Positions 4,549 to 50,540 of a stretch of 64,000 nucleotides of DNA are shown here, in pieces. Under the pieces are notes generated by a model, which was not told the origin of the DNA, did not search any database, and saw only the letters and a list, made by a program, of their open reading frames with translations. The DNA comes from Thalassotalea crassostreae (GTDB taxonomy: Bacteria; Pseudomonadota; Gammaproteobacteria; Enterobacterales; Alteromonadaceae): positions 1,550,001 through 1,614,000 of the forward strand of contig NZ_CP017689.1 of assembly GCF_001831495.1 (NCBI RefSeq), written 5' to 3'. The position numbers and the translations under genes are program-made. Numbering within the stretch: the stretch's first letter is position 1; each line of letters starts with the position of its first letter.

Positions 4549-5310
4549 CTGCTCTTATATATTTTAAAATTACATTTATTCATTATGTAACTTATAATCA
4601 ACGAATAAGTGTTTATTGTAAATAGTATTCCTTGTAAAGAGTTTGTAAATTGTTATTAAAGGCAATTGCAAATAAGTTGTAAATCTCTGCAAAAAGAGTT
4701 ACCACGTAGTATTTATGTTCATGTATTAAGAATAATTTGCATGCAAGTGCCTATTATTTAGCCTTCCGCTTTATCTAACTAATAGAACCCTTGTTTCTGT
4801 TGCCATGCTCAATCAAGAATACAAACTTCCTTTAATCAGACGTTTACAAACGTTAAACGCCATTTATAAAGTGCTTTTTTTGGCGTATGAACAGTTTTTT
4901 CGTTGGGTTTTAAACTAATCAAAAGTAAGGGGGAAGAGTGAAATATAGACAACGGCTGTATACAAATACCGCAGCTAACAATAAATTGATTATTTACTGT
5001 TGATTTGGAATTACTGTTGTTGCTTAAATATGGCTCTTTACAAAAAACTTACATATGGAGTGATTAAGGGTTGACTACTTATCAACCAAGTGCTAAAAAT
5101 ATAATTACAAAGTGAATATTATAAGAAAAAAACACTTTAAGAGTTATTTTATTTCGTTTGCCAAATTGTTATTAACGTGAATTTAACATCTTTTTAACAA
5201 GGGGGCAGCAGGGACTTAACAATGATTTAAAGCATTGTATAGTGATTTGTATAGATATAAGCAATGGTTTTTTACCTATAAAATTATTAGGTTAAGCTGT
5301 GGGGAAGATT
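4549..5310. other. Divergent intergenic region between sulfatase and GlyGly-CTERM genes
   Basis: About 760 bp with no credible gene. It must hold promoters for both flanking transcription units. It contains the TGTAAAG half-site array at 4633-4694, and a weaker reverse-orientation pair (CTTTACA at 5036-5042, ACTTACA at 5047-5053, period 11). Immediately before the plus-strand gene a GGGGAAG ribosome site sits at 5301-5307. Confidence 0.6.
4633..4694 (+). promoter_or_regulatory. TGTAAAG half-site array (site A)
   Basis: Heptamers start at 4633 (TGTAAAG), 4644 (TGTAAAT), 4655 (ATTAAAG, weak), 4667 (TGCAAAT), 4678 (TGTAAAT) and 4688 (TGCAAAA), almost perfectly one helical turn apart. The same pair recurs upstream of other genes of this locus. 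It is read in plus orientation although the close gene (sulfatase, start 4548) is on the minus strand. On the minus strand the half-sites read TTTACA, so some may overlap a -35 box. Operator function is inferred. Confidence 0.55.
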
Positions 5311-8300
5311 ATGAATAAATTTAAATATAACAAAATTGCTGTAACCATTGGGGCGGTATTATCGATGACTAGTTTTTCATCAATGGCTGCATTTAACTAT
5401 GTAACAAATGGTGATTTTGAAACTGGCGTTATAGAAACGGTTCCTGATAGCGATCCTGTTGAATACGTCAATTGGGTGCCTACTCATAGTCATATTGTTC
5501 CTTCGATAATAATGGATACTGGTTATGAAGGCGCACAAGAAAGTTTCGTATTGCAAATTTTTGGTGAGGGCGGTCGCGATGGACATTCAAAGGCGGCAAA
5601 ACTAGCCGTTGAATTGGTGCCAGGTGGGTCATATACATTAACAGGCATGGTGAAAATTGACGCTGTAGACGGTACCACTACTAAAGTAATGATTAGTTAT
5701 TCTTATCAAAGTTTAGTCGTCGATGCTTATGTGACTTCAACGGTCAATGGCGACAAAGTAGACTCTGATGGTGTATGGCTTCCATATACATTACAAATCG
5801 ATATTCCTGCAGACGCTGCAGCAGACAAGCCTATCAAGATCTTTCCAAAATCAGCGGGTAGCGGTGACACTAAAAACGTTAATATTTACTTAGATGATCT
5901 CGTGATTGTAAGTAACGACGTTGAAGTTGATACCGACGAAGATGGTTTGCCTGACTCAATTGACCCTGATGATGATAATGATGGTTTTTCTGATGTCGAT
6001 GAACTTGCTGCGGGTACCGACCCATTAGATGATCAAGATAAACCTGCCGATTTTGACGGCGACTTTATTCCTGATGCGAGTGATCCTGATGACGATAACG
6101 ATACTTACAATGATGATATTGAAATATTAGCAGGCTCTGATCCTTTGGATGATACCAGTATTCCGGCAAATACGGATGGTGATGAAGAATTAGATTACAT
6201 AGATGAAGACGATGATAATGATGGTTTTACAGACGTTGATGAGATAGCTGCGGGTACAGACCCTCTTAATAATAGTGATGTTCCAGATGATTTAGATGGT
6301 GATTTTGTTTCTGATGTGACTGATCCTGATATTGATGGCGATGGTGTTCTAAATGACGAAGATGGCGACCCTCGTGATCCATTAGTTGGCAAAGATGATT
6401 TCGATGACGATGGCTATTCTGATAGTGATGAAATAGCTGCGGAATCAGACCCTGAAGACCCTTTAGATACACCAGCAGATAATGATGGTGACTTTATTTC
6501 TGATGTAACTGATACTGATGATGATAATGATGGTGTTAGTGATGTTGACGAAGTTGCGGCAGGTACTGATCCATTTTTAGACACAAGTTTTCCTTTAGAT
6601 ACCGATTTAGATGGCACCTATGACTGGGAAGATACCGATGACGACAATGATGGCTTTACCGATGAAGATGAAACAGCTGCCGGTTCGGACCCTTTGCTTA
6701 TTGATGATGTTCCCGCCGACTTAGATGGCGATTTTATTTCAGATGTTACAGATACAGATATTGATGGCGATGGATTTACTAATGACGATGAAATATCTGC
6801 TGGCACAGATCCTTTACTTGTTGATGATGTACCTGCCGATTTAGATGGTGATTTTATTTCTGATGTGACTGATACAGATATCGATGGTGATGGTATAGAA
6901 AATGATTTAGATTACTACCCATATGATCCAAACTTATCAGCAGAGCCAGCAGGTTCTAAACTTTCAAAAACTGATTCTTATGGCAATCGAGCCGGACGAG
7001 ATTACTGGTCAGCATACGATATATTAGGTCAACGTTTAGATATCATGCGTCTACCGGTTAGTGCAAGTGTAGGCTTACCTGAAGGTGATGAAGCAGGTAC
7101 TGCAAACTATGAAGAAATTGAAGCATGGTTAGCAGAGAATTCGGATTGGAAATGGGCTACCAATGAACAGTATGAAGCAATACATGGCTTCTTTGATGGC
7201 AGTAATTTAGAAAATGTAGACGCTTTTTTCGAGTTGAATGGTTTCGAGTGGTCGACTTGGGCAAGACCAGGTAAACCGTCTAAGTGGTTACCGTTAACAT
7301 TAGACGCAACGCTAGTTGATGTTAGTGTTCCAGTAGAACCTGGAACAACAAAACTCCCCGTTCTTAAATATACGGTATCAGAAGAGGCATTTACTACCGT
7401 AATTAGCACCTCAGACAGTTTTAGTGTTTCAGGTGTAGCATCAGCTCCGTTATTAGTACGCGTTGTAACTTTTGACCCACTTGGCGACAACGATGGAGAT
7501 GGCTACATAAATGATGAAGATGCATTTATGGACGATCCAAATGAGTGGATTGATACTGATGGTGATGGCGTAGGTGATAATGGTGATGTATTCCCTGACG
7601 ATCCTGCAGAAAGTGGTGACGCTGATGGCGATGGTATTGGTGACAATGCTGATGATGACTCGGACAACGACGGCGTGCCAAATGAGACTGATAGTTTCCC
7701 ATTAGATAATGAGCAAAGTATTTCAGTAAGTATTGCTCGTTTTGTTGAATCGCCTGAACAAGTAGGTACAAATATCGTTGAAGGTGAATCATTAACATTT
7801 AATGTAAATATAATTGGCTCTGATGGCTTATCGAAAGGTCAATCAACGTTAAGCCATAGTTGGAAACAACTTTCAGGTCCAACTATAGAGTTTACTGAGA
7901 CTGAATCGGGAATCAATATTGCCGCACTTCCTAATGTTCAAGTAGACGAAGAAGTCGTATTTGAGTTAACTATTAGCAATGACGTTCATACCACTACAGT
8001 GTTAAAAACATTTACGCTTAGTGCGATACCGTCTTTTGTTTCTTCGAGTGTCGATTTGATTGGAGCGAGAGCGAGTGAAGATGACGCCGGTAATAAGGTT
8101 ATTAGCTTAAAGCCTGGTGACGTTATTGAACTTGATGGCAGTGCTTCAACTGATAATTTAGGTGCTGATTTATCGTTTAGATGGGTGCAAACACGTGGTC
8201 CGGTGATCAATATTGTTAATTCAAACAAAAGTATCGCCAGTTTTAAAGTTCCAAAACGTGACAAACACTCGACAAGCATTGGTATTAAATTAATCGTATC

Positions 8301-8439
8301 TAATGGTCAATCCCATGAAGGCGCAGAATCTGTTTCTGTTGTTAACGCTGATATCGAAAGCAGCAGTGACAGTGGTGGTTCATTTGGCATCTGGGGTATG
8401 TTACTCGCTGGTATTGCGTTAATGAGACGAAAACTATAA
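5311..8439 (+). CDS. Surface-anchored acidic-repeat protein with GlyGly-CTERM sorting signal
   Basis: 1042 residues from ATG 5311, chosen because GGGGAAG lies directly before it; an in-frame GTG at 5299 would precede that site. Signal peptide ends near AAF (residue 26). Order: jelly-roll/CBM4/9-like module (about 27-197, NGDFETG start); about eight thrombospondin type-3-like repeats of 40 residues rich in DxDxDG calcium loops (about 206-540); an unrecognised Trp-rich domain (550-665); two more Asp-rich repeats (723-800); two Ig/PKD-like domains (about 806-1013, with WKQLSGP and WVQTRGP). The last 23 residues, GG plus a hydrophobic helix and RRKL, form a GlyGly-CTERM signal processed by rhombosortase after type II secretion. 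The likely role is binding polymer at the cell surface; no catalytic motif is recognised. No rhombosortase gene is in the window. Confidence 0.85.
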   Translation: MNKFKYNKIAVTIGAVLSMTSFSSMAAFNYVTNGDFETGVIETVPDSDPVEYVNWVPTHSHIVPSIIMDTGYEGAQESFVLQIFGEGGRDGHSKAAKLAVELVPGGSYTLTGMVKIDAVDGTTTKVMISYSYQSLVVDAYVTSTVNGDKVDSDGVWLPYTLQIDIPADAAADKPIKIFPKSAGSGDTKNVNIYLDDLVIVSNDVEVDTDEDGLPDSIDPDDDNDGFSDVDELAAGTDPLDDQDKPADFDGDFIPDASDPDDDNDTYNDDIEILAGSDPLDDTSIPANTDGDEELDYIDEDDDNDGFTDVDEIAAGTDPLNNSDVPDDLDGDFVSDVTDPDIDGDGVLNDEDGDPRDPLVGKDDFDDDGYSDSDEIAAESDPEDPLDTPADNDGDFISDVTDTDDDNDGVSDVDEVAAGTDPFLDTSFPLDTDLDGTYDWEDTDDDNDGFTDEDETAAGSDPLLIDDVPADLDGDFISDVTDTDIDGDGFTNDDEISAGTDPLLVDDVPADLDGDFISDVTDTDIDGDGIENDLDYYPYDPNLSAEPAGSKLSKTDSYGNRAGRDYWSAYDILGQRLDIMRLPVSASVGLPEGDEAGTANYEEIEAWLAENSDWKWATNEQYEAIHGFFDGSNLENVDAFFELNGFEWSTWARPGKPSKWLPLTLDATLVDVSVPVEPGTTKLPVLKYTVSEEAFTTVISTSDSFSVSGVASAPLLVRVVTFDPLGDNDGDGYINDEDAFMDDPNEWIDTDGDGVGDNGDVFPDDPAESGDADGDGIGDNADDDSDNDGVPNETDSFPLDNEQSISVSIARFVESPEQVGTNIVEGESLTFNVNIIGSDGLSKGQSTLSHSWKQLSGPTIEFTETESGINIAALPNVQVDEEVVFELTISNDVHTTTVLKTFTLSAIPSFVSSSVDLIGARASEDDAGNKVISLKPGDVIELDGSASTDNLGADLSFRWVQTRGPVINIVNSNKSIASFKVPKRDKHSTSIGIKLIVSNGQSHEGAESVSVVNADIESSSDSGGSFGIWGMLLAGIALMRRKL
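6661..6900 (+). repeat. 120-bp tandem repeat encoding 40-residue calcium-binding unit
   Basis: Two adjacent 120-base units (6661-6780 and 6781-6900) align without gaps. The encoded core PADLDGDFISDVTDTDIDGDG is identical apart from context, while codons differ mostly at third positions, so the protein repeat is held by selection rather than being a very recent DNA duplication. More diverged units of the same kind extend upstream to about 5930. Confidence 0.8.
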
Positions 8440-8461
8440 TAAAATAAACGCAGTAAACATT

Positions 8462-8488: not shown

Positions 8489-8674
8489 ATTTCCATTAAA
8501 TCTTAAGATAAAAATTCATTTAAATTACTACATTGGCGCTTTATTTTTATCAAAATTTAGCATAAGGTGTATATAGTTTATAATAATCACTTGGTTGGTA
8601 TTTGGATGTAGTGTCTAAATGTAATGACTGATTATTGACACTGTTCCAGAAATAATGATTAAAAGAAAATAACA

Positions 8675-13217: not shown

Positions 13218-13235
13218 TGTAAAGATTATGCAAAG
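13218..13235 (+). promoter_or_regulatory. TGTAAAG direct repeat (site B)
   Basis: TGTAAAG at 13218 and TGCAAAG at 13229, period 11, with a weak third half-site TGTAGG at 13241. It lies 104 bp before the GH29 start; a TATTTTATAG sequence that could be a -10 box follows at 13251. Function inferred from recurrence. Confidence 0.55.
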
Positions 13236-13321
13236 AAACTTGTAGGTGTGTATTTTATAGGTTAAAAACATTTAGTAGTTTGAGTTAAACGCAATTTTCA
13301 ATTATAAAAAGTGAAACAAAA

Positions 13322-14920
13322 ATGATTAAAGCAATAAAGTTACCACTATCTACCTTAACTATAGCAGTGCTGAGTTTAAGCGCTCCTTCGGCGCTTGCAG
13401 AAAAGACTGAAACGATAAAAGCTGATTGGGATTCAATCGCAACAAAACAAATTCCAGAATGGCTAATTGACGCAAAATTTGGCGTATATACACACTGGGG
13501 AATTTATTCAGTTCCTGCACATGGTGGACCAGATTACGTACGTCAAATGTATTCACCAAAAAATCGTAAAGGAGTGTATGAGTACCATACGAAAAAATAC
13601 GGTTCTTTAGAAGAGTTTGGCTATACAGACTTTATTCCCAAGTTTACTGCACCCAAATTTAATGCCAGCGAGTGGGTCGGCCTAATGAATGAAGCAGGTG
13701 CCAAATTTGGTGGTATCGCTTTAGTACATCACGATGGTTTCTTATTGTGGGATTCTAAGTACAGCCGTTGGAATTCTAAAAATATGGGTCCTAAGAAGGA
13801 TATCTACGGCGAAATCGCTGCAGAAGTCGCTAAATACCCAGATATGAAACTTGCAGCAACATTCCATCATGGTAGAACGTTTAACTATGCTTATGGAGAA
13901 CTAAAAGATAAAGGTGCTGATGCATCTAAGATCAACCCTAAATGGGAGTTGTCTGATCCTGAATTAGGTGACTTTTTCTGGAAAAAAGGTCGTGATTCAG
14001 AAGAGCAATTTAACTCAGATTGGTACGGTAAGATTACTGAAGTTGTAGATACCTACAAGCCTGATTTTATTTGGTTTGATGGTTTATCTACTTCAATGAA
14101 AGGTGGTCACCCAACTGAAGAGAATGTTACTAAAGCTATCTCGTACTATTACAACGAATCAGCGGCACGCGATCAAGACGTAGTCGTGGCTAATAAGTTA
14201 GCTGCCAATTTTAATTTTCCCGACCATGTGGGTTTAAAAAGTTATGAGAACGGTAGAGATATGCCAGAGCATCAACCTGGTTATTGGTTAGCTGATAGAG
14301 CTATAGGTTACCCATGGAGTTATGTTAATAATAAGACTTACCGTGACGGTCCTGACTATCAGGTTGATAGCATTATAGATTTTGCCAGCCGTGGCGGTAT
14401 TATGTTTTTATCATTAACGCCAAAAGGCGACGGTTCAATTCCTGAAGCAGAAGTTGAAATTATGAAGGGTATTGGTCGTTGGATGAAAGTTAATGGCGAG
14501 GCAATATACGGTACGCGTCGTTACAGTGTCTATGGTGAAGGTCCAACTAAAGTAACTAAGTTTGTTAAAATTAAAGGCAAAGAAAAGGTTAAGTGGGATC
14601 ATCGTAAACTTGGTGCAAAAGATGTTCGCTTTACTCAAAAAGACAATACTTTATATGCTATCGCGTTAGGCTGGCCTGAAAATGGTAAGTTAACGATTAA
14701 AACGCTAAATAATGACTACGCAATTTCAAGTTCAGATAAGATCAAAAACATCAGCCTTATTGGCAGTGATGAAAAGATTGAATGGAAACGAGATAGCAAA
14801 GGTTTGCATATAGTATATCCTGAAAAACAAGTAGGTGAATTTGCCTATTCATTTAAAATTGAAGTAGAAGGTGATTTAATCGTTACTGAGCCGGACGCTG
14901 AGCATATTAAAAAGTCTTAA
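13322..14920 (+). CDS. GH29 alpha-L-fucosidase, secreted (copy 2)
   Basis: 532 residues; signal peptide ends ALA-E near residue 27. GH29 motifs: FGVYTHWGIYS at 53-63, VHHDGF at 135-140, FHHGR at 181-185 and WFDG at 251-254 with Asp253 as the expected nucleophile. Nearly every block of the GH29 at 1218-2858 is conserved, so they are close paralogues that may differ in linkage or sulfate tolerance. It has its own promoter region with site B, 164 bp after the sulfatase stop, and ends in a strong terminator, suggesting a monocistronic unit. No anchor is seen, so it is probably periplasmic. Confidence 0.93.
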   Translation: MIKAIKLPLSTLTIAVLSLSAPSALAEKTETIKADWDSIATKQIPEWLIDAKFGVYTHWGIYSVPAHGGPDYVRQMYSPKNRKGVYEYHTKKYGSLEEFGYTDFIPKFTAPKFNASEWVGLMNEAGAKFGGIALVHHDGFLLWDSKYSRWNSKNMGPKKDIYGEIAAEVAKYPDMKLAATFHHGRTFNYAYGELKDKGADASKINPKWELSDPELGDFFWKKGRDSEEQFNSDWYGKITEVVDTYKPDFIWFDGLSTSMKGGHPTEENVTKAISYYYNESAARDQDVVVANKLAANFNFPDHVGLKSYENGRDMPEHQPGYWLADRAIGYPWSYVNNKTYRDGPDYQVDSIIDFASRGGIMFLSLTPKGDGSIPEAEVEIMKGIGRWMKVNGEAIYGTRRYSVYGEGPTKVTKFVKIKGKEKVKWDHRKLGAKDVRFTQKDNTLYAIALGWPENGKLTIKTLNNDYAISSSDKIKNISLIGSDEKIEWKRDSKGLHIVYPEKQVGEFAYSFKIEVEGDLIVTEPDAEHIKKS

Positions 14921-14972: not shown

Positions 14973-15254
14973 CGAATAAAATCGTTAACTCTAGTTAAGT
15001 AGTTTTAAAAAATAAGACTTTTAGGAGCATGTCTAACTTTTGAGATGGCCTATGTATAGTGGTCTTTGGTCAACATTTAATACATTTAAAATTCTCATTT
15101 TCTCGTTTTGTCCCTTCTTTGTTTTTTCGTGATTATTATAGTTTAAATACTAATTATAAGTGTTTATTAATATATTTAATCAGAAATAAGTGGTTTAAAT
15201 TTATAATAATCATTAATTTTGGTTGACTTTTATATTAAGAAAATAACATACTGA

Positions 15255-18341: not shown

Positions 18342-18939
18342 TCGTTTAAAGCATAAAATTGAGCGTTAACCGCAAGCATCACTACAGTAGTAGTAGGTGA
18401 GTAACACTGCAATACTCTTCGACTTTTAAGATTTATGCTTTTGTCGTGTCTTTTATATAAATTTAATCAAACTAAAAGCAGAGTATTTAATGATATTTAT
18501 TTTTTATTATTCTTATGTGTAACGTGGGGTGTGGCGAGTTTTAGTGTTACTGTTTAAATAAAAATGTAGAAATGTAAAGATTTAGCAAATATTTTATGTT
18601 AGTGTTTATTATAAAGTAAAAACATGATTTTATAGCGGAGTGGTTAAAAGTCGTACAAACCCATTATTTAATACTTGTTCAGCGCTTATTGAAGCGATTG
18701 TTTTAAACCTTTGGCGGTACTAACACAGCCAAATAAAAACAAATATAAAAATAAATATAAAAACATTACTAAATCTAAAATTGACTAATTTATATTAACA
18801 AAGAAAGTGATTTCGGCTTTATCTTTGTTCAAAAAATTACATAAAAAGAAGTATTTATGGCGATGTTTACATTGCCAATGACTAAATAACAACAAACAAA
18901 AGTTACCAAATAACGAATTTAGGGTTAGGAGAGTAAACA
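18342..18939 (+). promoter_or_regulatory. Leader region of TonB-dependent receptor with TGTAAAG repeat (site C)
   Basis: About 600 bp without a gene. TGTAAAG at 18573 and AGCAAAT at 18584 (period 11) are preceded by TGTAGA at 18565. A candidate -10 (TTATTATAAAG, from 18606) follows, which would leave a roughly 320-base untranslated leader. The ribosome site is TTAGGAGAG just before ATG 18940. No structured riboswitch was recognised. Confidence 0.5.
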
Positions 18940-25813: not shown

Positions 25814-25819
25814 TTACAG

Positions 25820-27178: not shown

Positions 27179-27190
27179 TAAATTTCTTCC

Positions 27191-32370: not shown

Positions 32371-32553
32371 ATCTGATTACCTTTATTCGTTTTTATAATG
32401 GGTATGATTTTTATATATTTAAAACATCATATAAAACCCGAGCAACAATTAAAACCTTTTATCATGAAAATTTATCGTTTTGTTAGTTGTTAATTTTCAA
32501 TAAATCTTGTTAACTCATGATGTAGAAGGGTTAAATGTGATGTTGGTGGTTAA

Positions 32554-32570
32554 TGTAAAGGAGTGTAAAG
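32554..32570 (+). promoter_or_regulatory. TGTAAAG direct repeat (site D) between fucP and quinoprotein gene
   Basis: Two perfect TGTAAAG heptamers at 32554 and 32564, period 10. The 300-bp divergent region 32371-32671 holds promoters of both genes; -10-like sequences are TTATAA near 32391-32397 for fucP (minus strand) and ATTATAAAT near 32648 for the plus gene. No other feature seen there. Confidence 0.55.
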
Positions 32571-32671
32571 GTTCATTTTAATTAAAATAATGAGAGGGAA
32601 ATGTGGCAAAAAGGTATTTTTCTTGTTTTTTGAAATTATGGGTGTACATTATAAATAATAATTTCTTTAGT

Positions 32672-37560: not shown

Positions 37561-37572
37561 GTATCTTTTGCC

Positions 37573-39372: not shown

Positions 39373-40418
39373 GTTTGTTTCCTTAGCCATGTTGCGTTGG
39401 CAATATTCGCTAAGAAAATGAATAATAATGATAGTAATACAGGCCAGTGAAAAACGGCCTGTTTGTCTTCAAAAATAACCCGCTGAAGGCTAGACGTTTC
39501 TAGTTCATTAATTGATTGATAAATTTTGTGAAGTGATTCAAAGTTGTGCGCTTTTTGGAAAACACCGCCGGTGCTTTGTGCCATTGCCTGCAATGTCCAA
39601 TCGGTGGATACAATCGTTTGCTGAAACTGAATTGTTTTACCTTCATCATTAACAAGGCTGCTTGTGTCATTATCACCAATACTGATGGTATAAATCTTTA
39701 TTCCCCATTGCTCTGCCATGGCCGCAGCCATTAATGGGTCATAACTGCCACTGTTATTTTCGCCATCAGTAAGTAATATGATCACTTTACTTTTTATCGT
39801 GTCATTTTCTAGCCCTAACGAGGTTTCATAATGGTTTAATTGTGCAGCAGCAAGGGCAGTAGCATCGCCAAATGCGGTGCCGTCTTCATTTGGTCTTGTC
39901 GAAGTCGTAATTGCGTTGGTCATATCCACTAATGCGTCATGAGCATTGGTAAGAGGCACTAGTGTGTCAGGGTAACGGGCAAAGGTGATCACCGAAATAA
40001 GATCGTTAGGTCGTCCTGTTAATTTGTCATTATCGCCAAGTACAAACTGCATTAGTGCTTTCTTGGCAACTTCCATTCGCGGCTTTTTATCGCCATCGAT
40101 TTCCATATAAAAATCCATCGAGGTGGATATATCAACAACCATAGAAATTGCGATCCCTTGTGATTGCTCCGATAGTCGTTGCTTTTTAACAAACGGCTGC
40201 GCCATTGCAATAATCATCCCTGTTAAAGCAAATATATGCAGCCAAGGAACGAACGATAAAAACTTTTCTCGAGAGCTTTTCGGCAAGCTTGTTAGCAATT
40301 CAGTATTTGAGTACTGATGTTTGCTGCTGACTTTTGAATTCTCTTTAAAGTTTCTTAAGCAAAATATAGGTATGAGTATTAATAACCAAAGTAACGCAGG
40401 ATATTCGAAATTAGGCAT
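39369..40418 (-). CDS. batA: BatA-like VWA membrane protein
   Basis: 349 residues from ATG 40418, supported by a TTAGGGA site upstream. N-terminal helix, second helix near 58-76, VWA domain with MIDAS DISTS (Asp96, Ser98, Ser100) and LLTDGENNSGS, and a C-terminal helix ending NIANATWL. Overlaps the upstream gene by 8 bp. With MoxR, VWA proteins form chaperone-like complexes; the metal ligands of the VWA domain are intact. Confidence 0.88.
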   Translation of the reverse strand: MPNFEYPALLWLLILIPIFCLRNFKENSKVSSKHQYSNTELLTSLPKSSREKFLSFVPWLHIFALTGMIIAMAQPFVKKQRLSEQSQGIAISMVVDISTSMDFYMEIDGDKKPRMEVAKKALMQFVLGDNDKLTGRPNDLISVITFARYPDTLVPLTNAHDALVDMTNAITTSTRPNEDGTAFGDATALAAAQLNHYETSLGLENDTIKSKVIILLTDGENNSGSYDPLMAAAMAEQWGIKIYTISIGDNDTSSLVNDEGKTIQFQQTIVSTDWTLQAMAQSTGGVFQKAHNFESLHKIYQSINELETSSLQRVIFEDKQAVFHWPVLLSLLFIFLANIANATWLRKQT

Positions 40419-41349
40419 TGTTAGTATCCCTAACATCTTTGTTTTTAATATTTAGGCACAGTTCACATAACTCGATATATTTTTGTTTATTGTTGTTGCT
40501 AAATCGAGCGGAAGTAAACTCTTTACTCAACGCCAAATTTTGCACTTTTATTTCTACTGACAATGGATCGAAACCAAGGTGATCTTGTATGCATTGTTGG
40601 AGCATTTTCCAGTCGTAATTGTCATCATTATTGGCATTGTCGATAAGTATTTGGGGCGAAGTCAAATTGCTACTTATTAATGTTTTATGATCTTTTTGTG
40701 CCACTATTTTCTGTTGCATGCGAAATGCTATAAAAGTAATACCTATAGCCATCAAGGCTAACGCTAAGGCCACCAATACTGGCTTGTCGCTATTGACTTC
40801 CTCTAACTGATGGAAAGGTTCAAGCCCCTGCAGTCTTGGTTTAATAGACGGTTTAGCTGACGTATTGAAGTCATTCATGTTATCAGTAGAATCAAAGCTT
40901 GAAGAAACTTCTATCTCTGGTGAGACAATTAATTGACTACTGTGCTGGTTGCCTAAATAGCTTTGGATAAGCATATTCTCAAAATTATAAATACCAGAGA
41001 TTGGTGCAATAAGCTCTATATTATAGGTAACTTTCCATGCAAGAGCTGTTTTTGAGTTTTCACTTGTTAATAGATAAGGCAGACTTTTTTTATGTTCAAT
41101 CAGGGTAAAAGGCTGCCAATCAAATTGGCTTGGTTCAAAGTAAATATCAACACCATCTCGGTACTCAATATCTATCTCAATACTCGTTTGTTGACCTGGC
41201 GTCAATTGCTTTTGTAGGACTGTCATTGTCGCCTTTAAGTGGGGAGATTCACTGACCTTGGCGTTTGCGACGCTAATGAAGTAGGCGTTGACAACGAAAG
41301 TGATAGCAACATAAGCAGATAATAATAGTGTTTTAACCACCCGTTTCAC
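40411..41349 (-). CDS. Bat-operon membrane protein, DUF4381-position, unknown function
   Basis: 312 residues. Starts with GTG at 41349 or at 41340; the latter is spaced better from GAGGG. Signal peptide, a beta-rich periplasmic domain (about 35-165) of the kind seen at the start of BatD, a single helix near 193-212 and a cytoplasmic C-terminus with a helical LALSKEFTSARFSNNNKQKYIELC block. It occupies the place of the small DUF4381 gene in other moxR operons and its C-terminal part may be homologous. Overlaps DUF58 and batA genes, so tightly coupled. Confidence 0.65.
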   Translation of the reverse strand: MKRVVKTLLLSAYVAITFVVNAYFISVANAKVSESPHLKATMTVLQKQLTPGQQTSIEIDIEYRDGVDIYFEPSQFDWQPFTLIEHKKSLPYLLTSENSKTALAWKVTYNIELIAPISGIYNFENMLIQSYLGNQHSSQLIVSPEIEVSSSFDSTDNMNDFNTSAKPSIKPRLQGLEPFHQLEEVNSDKPVLVALALALMAIGITFIAFRMQQKIVAQKDHKTLISSNLTSPQILIDNANNDDNYDWKMLQQCIQDHLGFDPLSVEIKVQNLALSKEFTSARFSNNNKQKYIELCELCLNIKNKDVRDTNNA

Positions 41350-42226
41350 CCTCGGTTCTTAATCTTCTTGTTTCAAAAAACTCTAACAATGTGGCAACAG
41401 GATCATCAACGAGCGTATGAGACAACAAGTCGACACCACTTTGAGAAAATTGCAGATCGCGTTGTTTAATCCTTTGTTGCATTTGTTCGTTAAATGTTTG
41501 GCGAACATTATCGTTATTACAATCGATAGTCTTTTGCTGTTTATTTTCACTATCGGAAAATTGAAACAGGCCTCGTTTCGGTAATGTGAGCTCTTTCGGG
41601 TCGTCAATTGCAATAGCAAGTAATTCATGTTGTTGAGCTAAAATAGCTAATTCTTGTTGGTAGCTATCATCACTGAAAAAGTCAGAAATCAAAATGATAA
41701 TTGAACGTTTAAGACTAAGTTCATTAAGATGTTTGAGCGCTAGTTTAATATTAGTTTTGACAGTGTCATTTGCTGGCATTAACAGTGTGCTTAAGCAGCG
41801 CATTAATTGACTTCTGCCTCTAGCAGGCGGCAAGTACTCGTCAATACTATGACTAAATTGCAATAAACCAATACGGTCATTATTGGCCAAAGCAGCGCTG
41901 CCAAGTAAGCCGCAAAACTGTGCTGCAACGTATGAACGGGAGGTTTTATCTGTAGTAAAATTAAAAGAGGGTGAGTTGTCTACAATGAAAATAAGATTAA
42001 GTTCACGCTCTTCATGAAATCGCTTTATATGAACTTCGCCGGTTCGAGCCGTAACATTCCAGTCAATAGTTCGAACGTCATCACCTAGAGCATACGGACG
42101 CACTTCATCAAACTCGACGCCTTGCCCTTTAAAGGCACTATGGTAGTGCCCGCTTAACAAGTGAGTTGATTTGTGTCGACAATACAGCTGTAATTGCTGC
42201 AAGCGTTGTTCAAATTGATCAATCAT
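41333..42226 (-). CDS. DUF58 domain protein of moxR operon
   Basis: 297 residues, soluble. The core motif YALGDDVRTIDWNVTAR at 52-68 defines DUF58, followed by a VWA-like fold with IVDNSPS in the MIDAS place. In other bacteria DUF58 proteins always accompany MoxR and are thought to help substrate engagement. Starts 23 bp after the moxR stop; ribosome site is weak. Confidence 0.9.
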   Translation of the reverse strand: MIDQFEQRLQQLQLYCRHKSTHLLSGHYHSAFKGQGVEFDEVRPYALGDDVRTIDWNVTARTGEVHIKRFHEERELNLIFIVDNSPSFNFTTDKTSRSYVAAQFCGLLGSAALANNDRIGLLQFSHSIDEYLPPARGRSQLMRCLSTLLMPANDTVKTNIKLALKHLNELSLKRSIIILISDFFSDDSYQQELAILAQQHELLAIAIDDPKELTLPKRGLFQFSDSENKQQKTIDCNNDNVRQTFNEQMQQRIKQRDLQFSQSGVDLLSHTLVDDPVATLLEFFETRRLRTEGETGG

Positions 42227-42249
42227 TGGTTTTGTAAAATAACTTCTGG

Positions 42250-43236
42250 TTATTCATTTGGAATGGCTACTTGCGCAAGTATCTGTTCAATGATTTGCTC
42301 GGAGCTAATATGTTGAGCTTGAGCCTTGTAGCTAAGGGCAATACGGTGGCGTAATACGTCAGGCACCAATGATCGGATATCACTAGGTTGAACATGATCT
42401 CGACCTTCTAGTACCGCTAGGGCTCGTGCTGCCATTGCTAAGTTAATTGTTGCACGGGGAGATGCTCCAAAACGTATTAAGTCTGACAATGGTAAATTGT
42501 ATTGTTCGGGGTGTCTCGTTGCTGTAACTAAATGCAAAATGTACTTTTCAAGTGTTGCATCAAGATAAACATCACTCATAAGTTGGCATAGTTGCTCTAT
42601 ATCAGCACTCGATAATATCGCTGAAACGGTTGGTTTCTTCTTGCTTGGTTTTGACATACGTCGCAATACTTCAAGTTCATCATCAAACTCTGGATAATCC
42701 ACTTTTAATTTGAACATAAAGCGATCTACTTGTGCTTCAGGTAATGGGTAAGTACCTTCTTGTTCAATTGGATTTTGTGTTGCTAATACCAAAAATGGTT
42801 GCGGCAGTGGGTGAATGGTTTTGCCTAAGGTAACTTGTTTTTCTTGCATAGCCTCAAGTAATGCAGATTGTACTTTAGCGGGGGAGCGATTGATTTCATC
42901 TGCCAATACGATATTTGCAAAAATAGGTCCTTTTTGAGTGTCAAACTCGCCACTACTTGGGTTATAAATTTGTGTACCAGTTAAATCACCTGGTAATAAA
43001 TCTGGTGTAAATTGAACGCGGCTAAAATCTAGACCTAGTGCCTGCGCTAAAGTATTTACGGTTAAAGTTTTAGCTAAACCTGGTATACCTTCTATTAAAA
43101 CGTGGCTTTGACACATTAAAGCGATAATCAATCGTTGCACTAATGCATCTTGACCAACAATTACCTTGCTTATTTCTTCGCGAAGCCTGCCAATATTAGT
43201 CATCAAGTTCTGCTCGGAAGAGTTTTCTATTTCCAT
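42250..43236 (-). CDS. moxR: MoxR-family AAA+ ATPase
   Basis: 328 residues. Walker A GIPGLAKT at 50-57, Walker B IVLADEIN at 109-116, sensor ATQNP and the LPEAQVDRFMFKL arginine-finger block are intact, and the AAA lid follows. First gene of the moxR-DUF58-unknown-batA-batBC-batDE operon. MoxR proteins drive maturation or assembly of protein complexes; this one sits amid sulfatases, so a role in envelope enzyme maturation is conceivable but unproven. It is divergent from a sulfatase, sharing a 221-bp promoter region with site E. Confidence 0.93.
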   Translation of the reverse strand: MEIENSSEQNLMTNIGRLREEISKVIVGQDALVQRLIIALMCQSHVLIEGIPGLAKTLTVNTLAQALGLDFSRVQFTPDLLPGDLTGTQIYNPSSGEFDTQKGPIFANIVLADEINRSPAKVQSALLEAMQEKQVTLGKTIHPLPQPFLVLATQNPIEQEGTYPLPEAQVDRFMFKLKVDYPEFDDELEVLRRMSKPSKKKPTVSAILSSADIEQLCQLMSDVYLDATLEKYILHLVTATRHPEQYNLPLSDLIRFGASPRATINLAMAARALAVLEGRDHVQPSDIRSLVPDVLRHRIALSYKAQAQHISSEQIIEQILAQVAIPNE

Positions 43237-43337: not shown

Positions 43338-43354
43338 TGTAAAGTTGTGTAAAT
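43338..43354 (+). promoter_or_regulatory. TGTAAAG direct repeat (site E)
   Basis: TGTAAAG at 43338 and TGTAAAT at 43348, period 10, 104 bp before the sulfatase ATG at 43458. It is followed by a likely -10 region ATATTATAGTAAAAA (from 43385) that is identical over 15 bases to one after site F. Confidence 0.6.
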
Positions 43355-43457
43355 ACTACTGTACTTGTTTTTATTTTGTGTTGTATATTATAGTAAAAAT
43401 ACACTCGGGTGTTATTCATTAACGCTGAATAATAATGAAAAGACGATAGGAAATAAA

Positions 43458-44939
43458 ATGAGTTTTCTCAAGACCTCATTGGCTATGGCCATATTTATCA
43501 CTAGTATGCTTACACAAGCAGCACAAACTCGACCTAACATAGTATTGATCTTGGCCGACGATGTTAGTCCAGATATGTTTAGTGCATTTGGCCAAGAGGG
43601 AGCAGCAAGCACCCCAAATATTGATAAGTTGGCCGCAAAAGGCGTTATGTTTAAAACGGCGTATGCCACGGCCAAGTGCGCATCAAGTCGCGTGGAAATC
43701 ATGACCGGGCGTTATGCTAACACTACTGGTGTATACGTTAATGAGATTTGGATGGGAGATTCTCGTCACAATGTATATTCCGATAACATTCCTTTTAGTA
43801 AGATGCTTAAAGATGCAGGTTATGCAACTGCGATTACCGGCAAATGGCATGCTGGAGTACAAATGCCCTATGAGGATGTGCTTGCCTTTGATGAGTATGC
43901 GCTGTGGGAAAGTTCGAAATACATTGCCGCTTTAGCTGGGTCACCTAAATTTACAGGTTTAATGGAAGATCATAAAACCACATCACGTTATTGGCACCCT
44001 GGCTTTGTAAAAAATGGCAAGTTAATGGCGACTAAACCTTCCGATTACAGCTTAGATATTGAAGCTGACTTTATAATGGAGTTTATGGAAAAAAACGTGA
44101 AAGCGAATAAGCCGTTTTTAGCCTATTGGCCAACGGTTGCACCACATGGAACTCGAACCGGAATGCCTACCAACCCATTACGGGGCAAGCAAGGGAGTTT
44201 AGCTGCAGAAGAAGGTGATGAGAAAAACGAAGACGAAGTGCGTTTTAAATCACTGATCGAATATTTAGATTTAAAAGTTGGTGAAGTAGTCGCTAAAGTA
44301 GAGTCATTAGGCATTAGTGATAATACTATTATTATTTTTACCTCTGATAATGGTACTGCGGTTACGGCTAAAACCCGTGGCGTTGAAAGAGGCTCACATG
44401 TTGTTCATATTGCCGCTGGCGCAGGGGTTATAAAACGTGGTGCTACCGATGAATTAACTGACCTATCAGATATTACCCCGACGTTAATTGACTTAGCCCA
44501 AGCTTGGGACCATGTACCTGAAGGACATAAATTTGACGGTAAAAGCCTGAAAAATTTTTATACTGGAAAAACCGACGAGCACCGTGATTGGATTTATGGT
44601 TATGCCGCTACTTCGCAACTATTTCGTACTAAAAACTATATGCTTGAAGTGGTTAATCCTGTGATGGGCATGCCAAATGGACGTTTTTATTATACCGCTG
44701 ATAATCGTTTTGGTCATGGCTATATATTGGCCGATGGAAATCCTGAACATGCAAAAGCCCGTGCCAAGTTTGACTCATTTATGGCACAACTACCGGCAAT
44801 AACCAAAGAGCATCCACATTGGAAAACTAAAACAGGTAAAAAAGTATTAAAGAGTTTAGCTAAACCAGCTGTTAAAGAAAAACACCTTTATAATCATCGA
44901 GATTATAAACGTTATGATGAAACATATACTGATAACTAG
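43458..44939 (+). CDS. S1 family sulfatase with CASSR motif
   Basis: 493 residues from ATG 43458, preceded by ATAGGAAAT; upstream in-frame codons give no signal peptide at the start. Signal peptide ends near QAAQ (residue 22). ADDV at 33-36, formylglycine motif CASSR (Cys74), GKWH, APH, and TSDNG with RGSH follow. Third motif residue is Ser, as in the sulfatase at 23616, differing from the usual Pro/Ala. The last 80 residues lack the usual long C-terminal domain pattern. Likely its own transcription unit under site E. Confidence 0.9.
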   Translation: MSFLKTSLAMAIFITSMLTQAAQTRPNIVLILADDVSPDMFSAFGQEGAASTPNIDKLAAKGVMFKTAYATAKCASSRVEIMTGRYANTTGVYVNEIWMGDSRHNVYSDNIPFSKMLKDAGYATAITGKWHAGVQMPYEDVLAFDEYALWESSKYIAALAGSPKFTGLMEDHKTTSRYWHPGFVKNGKLMATKPSDYSLDIEADFIMEFMEKNVKANKPFLAYWPTVAPHGTRTGMPTNPLRGKQGSLAAEEGDEKNEDEVRFKSLIEYLDLKVGEVVAKVESLGISDNTIIIFTSDNGTAVTAKTRGVERGSHVVHIAAGAGVIKRGATDELTDLSDITPTLIDLAQAWDHVPEGHKFDGKSLKNFYTGKTDEHRDWIYGYAATSQLFRTKNYMLEVVNPVMGMPNGRFYYTADNRFGHGYILADGNPEHAKARAKFDSFMAQLPAITKEHPHWKTKTGKKVLKSLAKPAVKEKHLYNHRDYKRYDETYTDN

Positions 44940-45053: not shown

Positions 45054-45071
45054 TGTAAAGGGTATGTAAAG
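45054..45071 (+). promoter_or_regulatory. TGTAAAG direct repeat (site F)
   Basis: Two perfect TGTAAAG heptamers at 45054 and 45065, period 11. The sequence ATATTATAGTAAAAA from 45117, shared with site E's promoter, is a probable -10 region. Start codon of the sulfatase is GTG 45192. Confidence 0.6.
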
Positions 45072-45191: not shown

Positions 45192-46820
45192 GTGAATCTA
45201 TCTAAGCAAATAGAGAAGATAAATAAAATTTATTTTAAAGCAATATTATTAACTGCTTTAACTGGCTTAAGTGTCATCCTAGCCCCTTTAAATGCAACGG
45301 AAATAACGGCTAAGCAGCAACCTAATATTATTTATATTCTTGCCGATGACATGGGACAAGGTGATACGACGGCTTATAATTCAAACAGTAAAATACCTAC
45401 GCCTAACTTAAAGCGTTTGGCCGAAGAAGGAATGACTTTTACCAATGTCCATTCAAATTCTAGTGTTTGTACACCAACTCGCTATGGTGTTTTGACTGGG
45501 CGCTATGCGTGGCGAACCACTTTAAAAAATGGTGTCTATGGCGGTTACAGCCAGCATCTTATACCAACGATTCGAGAAACGGTTCCATCATTACTTAAGA
45601 AGCAAGGTTACGCTACTGCTGTGACAGGCAAGTGGCACTTAGGCATGGATATGGCTAGTAGTGATGGTAAGAAAATTCATAAAGGTTATGGTGAAAATGC
45701 TGATTTAAGCAAGCCTATTAAAAATGGCCCTAATGCAGTGGGTTTTGATTATTATTATGGAATTTCAGCCTCATTAAATATGTCACCACATGCGTATATA
45801 GAGAACGATAAAGTACAAGGGGAACTTGTTTTTTTAAAAGACAAAAAATCGGTTAAGGGTGCTGGCTTAGTCGGTGCTAAAACAGGGTGGATGGCAAAGG
45901 ATTTTAAACAAGACCAAGTGCAAACGACCTTTATAAATAAAGCCATTGATTGGATAGAACAGCAGCAAAAATCAGACAGTAAAAAACCTTTCTTTGTTTA
46001 TATTCCGTTGAATTCACCTCATTCACCAATTGTTCCTAGCAAAGATTTTATCGGTAAAAGTGGTTTATCAGATCACGGTGACTTTACCATGGAAATGGAT
46101 TATGAAATTGGTCGCTTATTAAATGTCTTAGATAAATTGGGCATTACCGATAATACTATGGTTGTCTTTACCTCAGACAATGGCACTTCGCCAGCAGCTA
46201 AGCTAGATAAAATGCAAGCTCAAGGTCATTATTCAAGTATGGAATATAGAGGCCTAAAGGGATCGCTTTATGAAGGTGGTCATAGAGTACCATTTATTGT
46301 CCGCTGGCCAAATACGGTTAAAGCTGGTAGCACTACTAATTACCATGGCTCGTTAGTTGATATGATGGCAACTGCTGCAGACATTACAGGTACGTCACTT
46401 GCTGATAATACTGGCGAAGACAGTGTTAGCTTTTTACCTGTATTACAGGGAAAGAGCGTAGATGATAGTAAACGAGGTGTCGTTTATCATTCCGACGCAG
46501 GTTACTATTCCATAGCCCAAGGCAAGTGGAAATTAATATTGGATAAGAAGGGCGGTACACGCCGTTTAAACCCGAAAGATAAAAATAGCCCGGTTAAAAA
46601 TGCTGAAAATATTCAGCTGTTTAATATGAAAAATGATACTTCGGAGCGAGTGAGTGTTCATAAACAACACCCTGAAGTAGTCGCAAATTTAAGTAAATTA
46701 CTTAAAGAGTATATTGTTAAAGGGCGAAGTAATGGCAATGCGCCAGCCAGTAATGATGATATTGATGAAAAACTGAAAAATAAATGGCAAAGCTTATTAG
46801 GGGAACAAGTGACTCTATGA
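45192..46820 (+). CDS. S1 family sulfatase (CTPTR type)
   Basis: 542 residues from GTG 45192 with AAAGG 8 bases upstream. A longer n-region precedes the signal helix (cleavage near NATE, about 36). ADDM at 51-54, CTPTR with Cys93, GKWH, SPH in place of APH, SDNG and YEGGH are present, so the active site is complete. Resembles N-acetylgalactosamine-6-sulfatase/arylsulfatase A-type S1 enzymes. The next sulfatase starts about 40 bp after its stop; an ATG at 46817 overlaps the stop, so the two are co-translated or at least co-transcribed. Confidence 0.92.
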   Translation: MNLSKQIEKINKIYFKAILLTALTGLSVILAPLNATEITAKQQPNIIYILADDMGQGDTTAYNSNSKIPTPNLKRLAEEGMTFTNVHSNSSVCTPTRYGVLTGRYAWRTTLKNGVYGGYSQHLIPTIRETVPSLLKKQGYATAVTGKWHLGMDMASSDGKKIHKGYGENADLSKPIKNGPNAVGFDYYYGISASLNMSPHAYIENDKVQGELVFLKDKKSVKGAGLVGAKTGWMAKDFKQDQVQTTFINKAIDWIEQQQKSDSKKPFFVYIPLNSPHSPIVPSKDFIGKSGLSDHGDFTMEMDYEIGRLLNVLDKLGITDNTMVVFTSDNGTSPAAKLDKMQAQGHYSSMEYRGLKGSLYEGGHRVPFIVRWPNTVKAGSTTNYHGSLVDMMATAADITGTSLADNTGEDSVSFLPVLQGKSVDDSKRGVVYHSDAGYYSIAQGKWKLILDKKGGTRRLNPKDKNSPVKNAENIQLFNMKNDTSERVSVHKQHPEVVANLSKLLKEYIVKGRSNGNAPASNDDIDEKLKNKWQSLLGEQVTL

Positions 46821-48361: not shown

Positions 48362-48385
48362 GCGAACCACCTATTGTTAACATTT

Positions 48386-48418: not shown

Positions 48419-48469
48419 ATCATTTAGTTGCATTGAAGTTAAGGGAATAGGGCAGCAGTTATCAGACGT

Positions 48470-48507
48470 AAAAAAGGTTGAATAGAAATTCTATTCAACC
48501 TTTTTTT
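48470..48507. terminator. Bidirectional terminator
   Basis: Ten-bp stem GGTTGAATAG (48476-48485) with CTATTCAACC (48491-48500), five-base loop, flanked by five A and seven T, so it works on both strands. It also ends the minus-strand GH29 gene. Confidence 0.9.
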
Positions 48508-48542
48508 GTTTTCTAGTTAGTCGTTAACATTAAACCAGATGT

Positions 48543-50192
48543 TTAGTTTATTTTAAATGACATACCATGGTTAAATATTGCCGATGGTTTTTTCGCTGGT
48601 AGTTTGATTTTCAAGCCTTCATTTGTGCGAGTAAATTCAACTTCGCCAAAGCCAAGCATTGATACTTTATTAATAGCTTGTGGGTAATATTCAGAGTTAT
48701 CTTTTAAACTCTTAATTAGCACTTCACCAGATTTAGGCCAAGTTAACGACATGGCATAGAGTTGCCCATCTTTTTGGGTAAAGCGTATTTCACCGTCTTT
48801 TACCTTGTTGTAGCTCCAAACCATTCGCATAACTTGTTTATTTTTACCACTTTTTGCTACTTTCCAAGTAGAAATAGGACCTTCAGCAGGAATGGTCCAG
48901 CGTCTAGTATCGTAAATCGCTTCACCGTTCACCTTTAACCATTGACCAATTTCACGGAAAATTGCTTCTTCAGTAGGATCAATTGCACCAGATGCCATTG
49001 GCGTTAGTGACAATAAATAGATACCGCCACGAGCAACCATGTCCATCAGTGCATCAATATGGTAATTGGCATTAAGGTTGTAGTTCTTGTTTTTAACGTA
49101 AGTCCATGGATAGCTAATTGCTCGATCCACTAAGAAATAACCTCCAACATCGGCCGGCATATCACGACCGCCTTCGTAGGTTGGAATACCTATGTGTTCA
49201 GGAAAGTTAAAGTTAGCACCACCGGGTAGTTTATTGGCAACGACAACTTCTTTTCCTTCTGCTTTAGCATGCTCGTAATAGTAATCTAATGCATCAACAA
49301 CTAAGTTTTCTGGTGAGTTTTGGTTGGTGCGTTTTATGCCGTCAAAAAAGAAAAAATCTGGCGAGTATTTATCAATCACTTCTATTATTTTGTCATGCCA
49401 TTGCTGAGCAAAGACATCAATGGTGGTGGTTTTGCTGTTTCGTCCTGGGTAAAAGTCTTCAAACTGTTGATCGTAAATATCCAGCTTACTTTTCTCTTCT
49501 GCTGTAAAGCTACTCTCATCAATTGATTTGTGCACCATATCCCAAGTTCTTGCGTGATGAAAACTTGCGGCAACTTTAAAATTACGCTTGCGTGCCTCGG
49601 TAACAAACTCGCCATATAAATCACGTTTCGGGCCCATATTTCCAGCATTCCAGCGACTGATTTTACTATCCCACATCAAAAAGCCATCATGATGTACTGT
49701 CCCTAAACCGCCAAATTTAGCGCCAGAGTCAATCATTAGTTCGAGCATGTCTTTAGCGTTGTATTCTTCGGCTTTAAACATATCTACAAATTTGCTGTAG
49801 CCAAAATCCTCGGGCTTACCAAAGTTTTCTAAGTGATATTGATAGATACCACGAGGGTTAGTTTTGTCGTACATATAACGATGATAAACGTTTGTTTCAA
49901 AAGCCGGTACAGAGTAAACGCCCCAGTGGGTATAAATTCCAAATTTTGCATCAATGATCCATTCAGGAATTTTATTTTCTGCTATTTTATCCCAATCTTT
50001 GCGGTACTCAGCTACGGCTGTTTGATAAGTTGGTCTAGTGAACTTACCTTCATGTTTTTTTAATAGAGCAGCTTCTTCTGTCCCTAACTGAGCAACGTTG
50101 GTGTCGGTATAAATATATTGCTTATCGTTATTTGCTAAAACGGATGCAGATATTACCGCCAGAGTTAACAGATTTAGGGAAAATTTTTTCAT
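48543..50192 (-). CDS. GH29 alpha-L-fucosidase, secreted (copy 3, divergent)
   Basis: 549 residues; signal peptide ends VLA-N at 20. GH29 motifs FGIYTHWGVYS (84-94), VHHDGF (166-171), FHHAR (211-215) and FFDG with Asp284 as nucleophile. An about 35-residue N-terminal insertion (22-62) and YQTAVAEYRK segment are absent from copies 1 and 2, and the region around residues 97-115 differs, so it probably has another specificity. Divergent from the sulfatase at 50541. The 348-bp region between them contains sites G and H and the 11-bp tandem repeat. Confidence 0.93.
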   Translation of the reverse strand: MKKFSLNLLTLAVISASVLANNDKQYIYTDTNVAQLGTEEAALLKKHEGKFTRPTYQTAVAEYRKDWDKIAENKIPEWIIDAKFGIYTHWGVYSVPAFETNVYHRYMYDKTNPRGIYQYHLENFGKPEDFGYSKFVDMFKAEEYNAKDMLELMIDSGAKFGGLGTVHHDGFLMWDSKISRWNAGNMGPKRDLYGEFVTEARKRNFKVAASFHHARTWDMVHKSIDESSFTAEEKSKLDIYDQQFEDFYPGRNSKTTTIDVFAQQWHDKIIEVIDKYSPDFFFFDGIKRTNQNSPENLVVDALDYYYEHAKAEGKEVVVANKLPGGANFNFPEHIGIPTYEGGRDMPADVGGYFLVDRAISYPWTYVKNKNYNLNANYHIDALMDMVARGGIYLLSLTPMASGAIDPTEEAIFREIGQWLKVNGEAIYDTRRWTIPAEGPISTWKVAKSGKNKQVMRMVWSYNKVKDGEIRFTQKDGQLYAMSLTWPKSGEVLIKSLKDNSEYYPQAINKVSMLGFGEVEFTRTNEGLKIKLPAKKPSAIFNHGMSFKIN

Positions 50193-50540
50193 ATTAGGAC
50201 TCTCTATGTTGTATTTTATTTTTTAAATTATGCTCAATATAAGCTACTCAATACTAATGTTACGTGTGGTTATTATAATTAAAGTACATTTAATGTACAT
50301 TTAATAATCTAATCTGACAAATCTTATTGTGTAAAATCTATGTAAAGAACTATTGATGAGAATAAATTTAATGGCTTAATACAGCTCTAAATGTTCGGTT
50401 TTAAATGCTTTGCTCAAAGGTTGGTCTTTTTTTTATGTAAAGAGCACGTAAATATATTTGCTAAACTGTTTTGGAGTGGATATTATCGTTAATATACACT
50501 TGGCTTGTTTGGCCGTTATGAATAAATTATTGAGAATAAT
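50193..50540. promoter_or_regulatory. Divergent promoter region with sites G and H and an 11-bp tandem repeat
   Basis: Site G: TGTAAAA at 50330 and TGTAAAG at 50341 (period 11). Site H: TGTAAAG at 50436 and CGTAAAT at 50447 (period 11), followed by a -10-like TATTATC from 50481 for the plus-strand sulfatase. Nearer the minus-strand GH29, GTACATTTAAT occurs twice in direct tandem at 50284-50305; on the minus strand this reads TGTAC every 11 bp, a variant of the same half-site. No gene in the interval. Confidence 0.55.

Follow-up and report, generated by a model that had tools for sequence, protein, structure and literature searches.

A CpxR-like tandem repeat and a dyad over a -10-like sequence as candidate control elements of a fucoidan-type locus in Thalassotalea crassostreae

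The box of the response regulator CpxR has been published as GTAAA-N4-8-GTAAA for E. coli and, at mexA of P. aeruginosa, as GTAAACCTAATGTAAA, and it is reported to be active in either orientation (PMC5063474). The box of RstA, TACATNTNGTTACA, has the form TACA-N6-TACA (PMC4117788), and SO2426 of Shewanella oneidensis is described as a CpxR-like orphan regulator with a tandem CAAAA site and a 4-bp linker (PMC3127752). Here we describe two promoter elements in a 64,000-nucleotide stretch of Thalassotalea crassostreae DNA (the window, bases 1,550,001-1,614,000 of one 3.86 Mb contig, NZ_CP017689.1): a direct repeat of TGTAAAG-like copies, referred to as tandem A, and a two-fold-symmetric element, referred to as dyad B, together with the GntR-FCD regulator encoded beside them. 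Besides the GntR-FCD gene, the window encodes three GH29 fucosidases, a TonB receptor, an MFS transporter and many sulfatases; judged on gene content, it is a fucoidan-type polysaccharide locus, and a substrate of that type is presumed. The locus runs on leftward, with a sulfatase, an amidohydrolase, a zinc dehydrogenase and an altronate-hydrolase-type gene in the left extension. How polysaccharide loci of marine Gammaproteobacteria are regulated has, to our knowledge, been little worked out.

Demonstrated at the sequence level are both elements, their enrichment and pairing, their partial conservation between orthologous promoters, and the resemblance of A to the arrays at cpxR promoters. We lean, with slightly better than even confidence, to a reading with two switches, in which B would be the operator of the locus GntR, placed over the -10 element, and A a shared input of CpxR type upstream of it. 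The tandem A sites of the window are the following.

4633-4650, minus strand: tandem A, TGTAAAG..TGTAAAT on the plus strand; the nearest gene is the minus-strand sulfatase 2869-4548, and the array also precedes its orthologue in a related genome, G010
5036-5053, minus strand: extra tandem A, TGTAAGTTTTTTGTAAAG, 73 bp before the B site at 5109, missing from the first-pass annotation
13218-13235, plus strand: tandem A before GH29 13322-14920; second copy of GCAAA type; A-B spacing 27/27 in T. crassostreae/G010
18573-18590, plus strand: weak tandem A, second copy AGCAAAT, before the TonB receptor 18940-21816; 26 bp from A start to B start
32554-32570, plus strand: exact tandem A of period 10 before a PQQ-like gene (probable start near 32672)
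43338-43354, plus strand: tandem A of period 10 before sulfatase 43365-44939 (probable start near 43435)
45054-45071, plus strand: exact tandem A of period 11 before sulfatase 45192-46820; A-B spacing 56/55
50330-50347, minus strand: tandem A, TGTAAAA..TGTAAAG on the plus strand, upstream of the minus-strand GH29 48543-50192
50436-50453, plus strand: tandem A, second copy CGTAAAT, before sulfatase 50541-52139; A-B spacing 37/37

The first-pass annotation of the window had listed eight TGTAAAG pairs. A TGTAAAG-like pair is present at all eight positions, but exact direct repeats are limited to two of them (32554/32564 and 45054/45065); the copies differ by one base in four pairs (4633, 13218, 43338 and 50330), by two at 50436 and by three at 18573. 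Further TGYAAA copies stand at 4617, 4667 and 4678 beside the pair at 4633, and the pairs at 4633 and 50330, nearest to minus-strand genes, are oriented the opposite way. The first-pass annotation had rightly recognised direct repeats spaced by one helical turn, as is usual for response regulators of the OmpR/PhoB family, in promoters of a polysaccharide locus; palindromes of CRP or LacI type were set aside on the sole ground that the copies are direct repeats. The distance of 85-155 bp given for most pairs to a start codon is roughly right only, the values to the listed open reading frames (ORFs) being 84, 86, 349, 32, 10, 120, 137 and 87 bp. The listed starts at 32603 and 43365 are probably too early, because B lies inside both ORFs and ATGs follow downstream. 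The 34-63 bp stated between several pairs and a TATTATA are about right, and this TATTATA is the left half of element B.

Exact TGTAAAG pairs occur twice in the window, compared to 0.00 over 100 shuffles. When zero-mismatch TGTAAA pairs in intergenic DNA were tested at periods of 6-17, only periods 10 (two pairs), 11 (three) and 16 (one) were found. Among all 6-mers repeated at period 10-11 with at most one mismatch in 6,714 intergenic bases, the most frequent is TGTAAA (10 occurrences), closely followed by ATTTAA (9), a word of A and T only. In 200 first-order Markov randomisations TGTAAA averaged 0.90, and in none of the 200 runs did a word of at least three letter types reach 10. The density of A per 10 kb of intergenic DNA is 19.1 in the window, on which the A matrix was trained, and 13.7 in the G010 stretches, which were not used for training; the background has 2.06. 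Coding regions were masked by greedy ORF calling; for the window this mask was corrected by shifting two starts and by manually adding a few short genes or a gene cut at the edge.

TATTATA is half of a 24-bp dyad, GTGnnTATTATAnnTAAtatnCAC, which the first-pass annotation had missed. This element B was spotted by eye and has flanking GTG/CAC at fixed spacing. Its sites in the window, given without strand, are the following.

4606-4635: dyad B, 21.5 bits
5109-5138: dyad B, 26.8 bits, before 5299-8439
8564-8593: dyad B, 27.0 bits, before sulfatase 8675; not found before the G010 orthologue
13245-13274: dyad B, 26.6 bits, before GH29 13322
15126-15155: dyad B, 23.5 bits, before 15366; not found before the G010 orthologue
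15187-15216: dyad B, 23.1 bits, before 15366; not found before the G010 orthologue
18599-18628: dyad B, 24.8 bits, before the TonB receptor
32401-32430: weak dyad B, 18.7 bits, before the minus-strand MFS transporter 31024-32370
32639-32668: dyad B, 21.2 bits
43378-43407: dyad B, 26.5 bits
45110-45139: dyad B, 27.6 bits
50263-50292: dyad B, 29.0 bits, before the minus-strand GH29 48543-50192
50473-50502: dyad B, 28.6 bits; TTGCTA-17-TATTAT at 50458-50486 by consensus scan, with the -10 inside B
53819-53848: weak B in the GntR gene's own promoter, 18.7 bits

Three window sites, chosen by eye, served as the seed of the B matrix, which was then refined with 30 sites (14 from the window, 7 from the left extension and 9 from G010); the held-out data are confined to stretches L084-L086 and L258-L260 and the background. 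Compared with its own reverse complement, the matrix agrees most closely when the two are not offset (r 0.68; 0.40 at the second-best offset). No site above 16 bits was found in 640 kb of background (32 stretches of the same genome), and none above 13 bits in a further 100 kb around the locus and a GntR paralogue. The held-out G010 stretches contain 8 sites above 16 bits, and in two Colwellia assemblies with a GntR of 80 % and 72 % identity the flanks of this gene hold 3 and 6 sites of at least 16 bits, respectively. At the 72 % identical GntR (L260), three of the six B sites have an A pair (21.0, 16.3 and 15.3 bits) 33-37 bp away. Around GntR paralogues of 52 % identity (80 kb from G004, G006 and G009), one B site, of 16.6 bits, was found. 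A literal genome-wide search for B with up to three mismatches was useless (24 hits against 36 for the reversed control), and the matrix was used instead.

B contains TATTATA at a plausible -10 place, and it might thus be a mere consensus of strong -10 regions and not the operator of any regulator. This is very improbable considering the complete lack of sites above 16 bits in the background, the GTG/CAC flanks at fixed spacing with two-fold symmetry, and the recurrence of B beside GntR in Colwellia. At the 50541 promoter the consensus scan places TTGCTA directly after A and TATTAT inside B; the scan overall finds promoters at chance rate.

Pairing of the two elements was counted on 37 B sites above 17.5 bits in T. 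crassostreae and G010 DNA. A GYAAA tandem lies within 110 bp upstream at 14 of these (8/14 in the window, 0/7 in the left extension and 6/16 in G010), compared to 6 of 507 windows before background genes, coding DNA included. For G010 alone, which the first-pass annotation had not seen, the 6/16 corresponds to P 2e-7. In ten of the 14 pairs A has the orientation of the gene and starts 26-85 bp before B (offsets of 26, 26, 27, 27, 37, 37, 40, 55, 56 and 85 bp), and four are reversed. As TATTAT, the -10-like sequence, starts some 8 bases inside B, A ends about 16 bp or more upstream of it.

When upstream regions of reciprocal-best gene pairs were compared between T. crassostreae and G010, B was kept in 10 of 14. 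Conservation of A in orthologous promoters, as expected from the first-pass annotation, was found in seven of the nine G010 regions where T. crassostreae has A. The spacing between A and B is kept at three promoters (27/27, 56/55 and 37/37). In two of the five promoters that were aligned, 15/18 positions of A and 23/30 of B are identical, compared to 59/142 and 67/142 elsewhere.

The protein proposed to bind B is encoded towards the right of these sites.

53896-54807, plus strand: GntR-FCD regulator with two predicted tandem winged helices (Pfam, predicted model), proposed B-binder

GntR-FCD regulators usually have one winged helix per chain; the locus GntR departs from this layout, as two are predicted. 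PF00392 and PF07729 both score above cut-off, and a Pfam GntR helix is matched in each N-terminal half, at E 4.8e-8 (residues 32-62) and, under the curated cut-off, at E 1.7e-4, with the FCD domain behind. The predicted model (mean pLDDT 85.5, pTM 0.63) has helix-helix-helix-strand-strand twice (residues 6-68 and 86-149), followed by six helices, and the standard winged helix and FCD of the solved chains 3fms and 3sxy align to residues 97-290. By the model, two winged helices per chain, thus four per dimer, would suit a 24-bp dyad. The GntR is likely the protein that targets B, and B likely a locus-specific operator. Half of B, TATNAATAAACNNCA, is found in all eight GntR promoters that were read, which suggests autoregulation; orthologous GntR promoters may also keep a -10 for other reasons. 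As B is the likely GntR target, the gel shift of GntR on tandem A proposed in the first-pass annotation is probably the wrong pairing.

At E 1e-3 the GntR has 2,123 homologues; among the 120 matches listed, the named close ones are from Thalassotalea and Colwellia, and two more distant ones are named L-galactonate regulators by one source. In the openly licensed literature, as judged from titles and the opening of abstracts, we found no report of a GntR with two DNA-binding domains. Beside a 90 % identical GntR, G011 (L068:14365-17425) has one exact tandem A and a GH29-like gene that is split, by eye, among several ORFs; this locus is to all appearances a decaying one.

Tandem A had been described as locus-wide, which misplaces it: A is also found near sulfatase genes elsewhere in the genome and at cpxR promoters, and the left extension is nearly without it. 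Genome-wide, exact TGTAAA-N4/5-TGTAAA occurs 13 times, compared to 3 for a reversed control, and five of the 13 are in the window. Six of the eight exact pairs outside it lie within 5 kb of a sulfatase match, compared to 6.8 % of random off-locus positions (P 2.5e-6), as do five of eight one-mismatch pairs elsewhere in the genome (P 6.9e-5). Of the remaining two exact pairs, one stands before a DUF1800-type gene and the other before an RstA-like two-component operon; a similar DUF1800-type gene in G004 also carries a pair (by eye). Another sulfatase cluster at 3.59-3.63 Mb (L140 and L141), with LacI-type regulators (by eye), has five A-type pairs above 16 bits and no B above 15 bits, which supports A as a shared layer.

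With at most one mismatch in 14 bases, the pattern outnumbers its reversed control across 17 genomes (68 against 31 for N4 and 73 against 21 for N3), with 15 against 2 in T. crassostreae and 25 against 4 in G010. In 18 further genomes of the family, exact TGTAAAG-N3/4-TGTAAA was found 28 times and the reversed pattern 7 times; eight of the 28 precede a CpxR-like regulator, in seven cases with a CpxP-like gene facing away (by eye). For a Pfam tally of genes adjacent to A in the 17 genomes, 57 loci were inspected out of 141 matches, giving 50 neighbour genes within 350 bp, of which 44 were scanned and six short or opposite ones dropped. The tally comprised sulfatase (5), efflux OEP (3), TSP3 (3), GH29 (2), GH10 (2) and TonB plug (2), the rest being mixed. 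As sulfatases make up only 5 of the 44, A is not sulfatase-specific outside the genomes with a rich locus. In several genera (L216, L229, L240, L274, L280, L285 and L286), A-type pairs also recur upstream of small lipoprotein genes that resemble one another (DUF4397-like, mostly by eye); these genes are probably a core member of a Cpx-type regulon. The names cpxP, cpxR, LacI, DUF1800, DUF4397 and efflux were given by eye from translations and adjacency, except those in the Pfam tally.

The first-pass annotation knew of no described operator of this sequence, yet A fits the published CpxR box. Six of the eight pairs (4633, 32554, 43338, 45054, 50330 and 50436) are literal matches, GTAAA-N5/6-GTAAA, and in the other two (13218 and 18573) the second copy is GCAAA. 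CpxR orthologues were found in 16 of the 17 genomes, G005 having none at the cut-off. With the matrix made from the window, the promoters of all 16 cpxR orthologues, including that of T. crassostreae, contain a pair of at least 13 bits, and 14 of them one above 16 bits. An example of such an array is TGCAAAG-TTG-TGCAAAG-CAA-CGTAAAG-ATTA-AGTAAAG.

Several findings weigh against the reading with a GntR operator and a CpxR-type input. Most B sites, 23 of the 37, are without a nearby A pair, including all seven in the left extension. B is missing in G010 at four of 14 promoters, the A-B spacing differs at 48543 (55/44), and in the other three of the five aligned promoters the contrast in identity is weaker or absent (A 11/18 at 45192, B 13/30 at 48543 and A 23/43 at 2869). 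Beside close GntR orthologues, B sites above 16 bits number one in G011 (77 kb, 90 % identity) and none in G007 (L258, 30 kb, 85 %) or G017 (40 kb, 76 %); the fucoidan-type locus is broken or absent in G011 and G007 and was not found in the G017 stretch as read. The 40-kb left extension has one A pair, or 2.25 per 10 kb of intergenic DNA, close to the background. This low density would be expected if A were a product of chance, that is, of AT-rich promoters with selected near-matches, as would the imperfection of six of the eight pairs and the lack of enrichment of the single heptamer TGTAAAG in the window, where it occurs 17 times compared to 15.1 expected, a count reached in 37 of 100 shuffles. 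This explanation is already disfavoured and hardly credible, given that none of the 200 randomisations reached the observed count over all words, that A recurs beside B in G010 far above its background frequency, and that it is enriched near sulfatases elsewhere in the genome. Finally, the base preferences of A differ at position 1 from those of the lineage's own cpxR arrays: T is found there in 27 of 30 distinct halves of B-adjacent A, compared to 21 of 52 cpxR-array halves (P 7e-6), and this bias suits the TGTA core of the RstA box better than CpxR. At position 3 the corresponding figures for T are 24/30 and 33/52 (P 0.14).

It is possible, though doubtful, that A is instead the box of an RstA-like regulator (1788076-1788789 of the genome) controlling its own operon and the sulfatase clusters. 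A triple TGTAAA-type repeat stands about 146 bp before this gene, and besides the bias at position 1, the RstA box TACA-N6-TACA reads TGTA-N6-TGTA on the other strand, a form found in the period-10 pairs (32554 and 43338); the six period-11 pairs have N7. NCBIfam ranks RstA first for the protein, with 258.7 bits, under its cut-off of 330. When its recognition helix was aligned to Klebsiella RstA, with the register set by eye, R199, V203 and R207, reported as DNA contacts (PMC4117788), appeared kept. A pair above 16 bits is kept in seven of 20 promoters of RstA-like orthologues; the other 13 are without one, compared to the 14 of 16 cpxR promoters that have one. Furthermore, the exact motif is still present at cpxR-like promoters in four of eight genomes of the same family without an RstA-like match at E 1e-60, and copies of A with C at position 3 (TGCAAAG) are CpxR-like. 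We favour CpxR over the RstA-like regulator as the putative A binder, as roughly twice as probable. The RstA-like two-component operon (1787913-1790079 of the genome, L135:7913-10079) with the triple repeat in its promoter may be a CpxR target and not self-regulated.

The half-site geometry is common to many OmpR/PhoB-family members, and the genome has 14 Trans_reg_C matches, so another of these 14 regulators, or an AraC-type protein, might bind A. We regard this as unlikely: of the 12 regulator loci scanned among the 14, only three have an intergenic A pair above 14 bits, namely RstA-like, CpxR and L148, the last with a pair of 16.3 bits before the neighbouring gene. In the openly licensed literature, as judged from titles and the opening of abstracts, we found no report tying CpxR or RstA to sulfatase or fucoidan regulation.

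The binding proteins, the sign of regulation and the signals are those that we infer from these elements for the preferred reading with B as GntR operator and A as CpxR-type box. Many promoters of the locus would be closed by B, the two-fold-symmetric element that covers the -10-like sequence: the double-winged-helix GntR-FCD of the locus would most likely bind B and repress in the absence of substrate, would control its own gene through the half-B, and would release B in response to a metabolite of the fucose pathway. Phosphorylated CpxR, or less likely the RstA-like regulator, would most likely activate from A. Tandem A appears to be in the usual position of an activator; repression would also be possible. 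As A is common to other sulfatase clusters, it would act as a general input of envelope state over cluster-specific repression.

More tentatively, and with somewhat less than even confidence, we propose that a two-component system of envelope-stress type (CpxR or RstA-like) could co-regulate the use of sulfated polysaccharides genome-wide in Thalassotalea and Colwellia, over cluster-specific repressors, and that the repressor of the fucoidan cluster could be a GntR with two winged helices per chain reading a 24-bp operator, where each chain would contact the GTG on the outside and the ATTA further in. If true, a response-regulator box common to the sulfatase clusters would tie the use of algal polysaccharides to the state of the cell envelope, through which the cells export many sulfatases (56 sulfatase matches in the genome). 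B provides a specific operator for listing the fucoidan regulon in related genomes.

Other genes were also noted in the locus. A MoxR / VWA / BatD-like operon (window 34714-43236, minus strand) lies centrally within the fucoidan-type locus and is oriented divergently to sulfatase 43365, and cytochrome c, HXXSHH (DUF1552) and PSD/planctomycete-type cytochrome genes are found at window 25190-30874.

Compared to known systems, A is a box of a familiar kind, here at a set of genes for which we found no such report in the openly licensed literature. It is like the CpxR system in its half-site, its direct-repeat geometry, its use of either orientation and the arrays at cpxR promoters of the genus. 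It differs in a stricter T before GTAAA and in its targets, which here are sulfatases, fucosidases and surface proteins of polysaccharide loci, whereas known CpxR targets are envelope-folding or efflux genes. With the RstA box A shares two TGTA cores 10 bp apart on the opposite strand, and the genome has an RstA-like regulator with contact residues apparently kept; A has AAAG after TGT and period 11 in six of the eight pairs first noted, whereas the enterobacterial RstA box has TGTAAC. SO2426 is comparable as a CpxR-like orphan regulator with a tandem site controlling uptake genes, but its pentamer and its target set (siderophores) are others. The newer part is B with the double-helix GntR. 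The locus GntR resembles solved GntR-FCD chains over residues 97-290 and differs in its predicted extra N-terminal winged helix, and the 24-bp dyad proposed here as its operator is longer than the short TNGTNNNACNA-type operator of that family.

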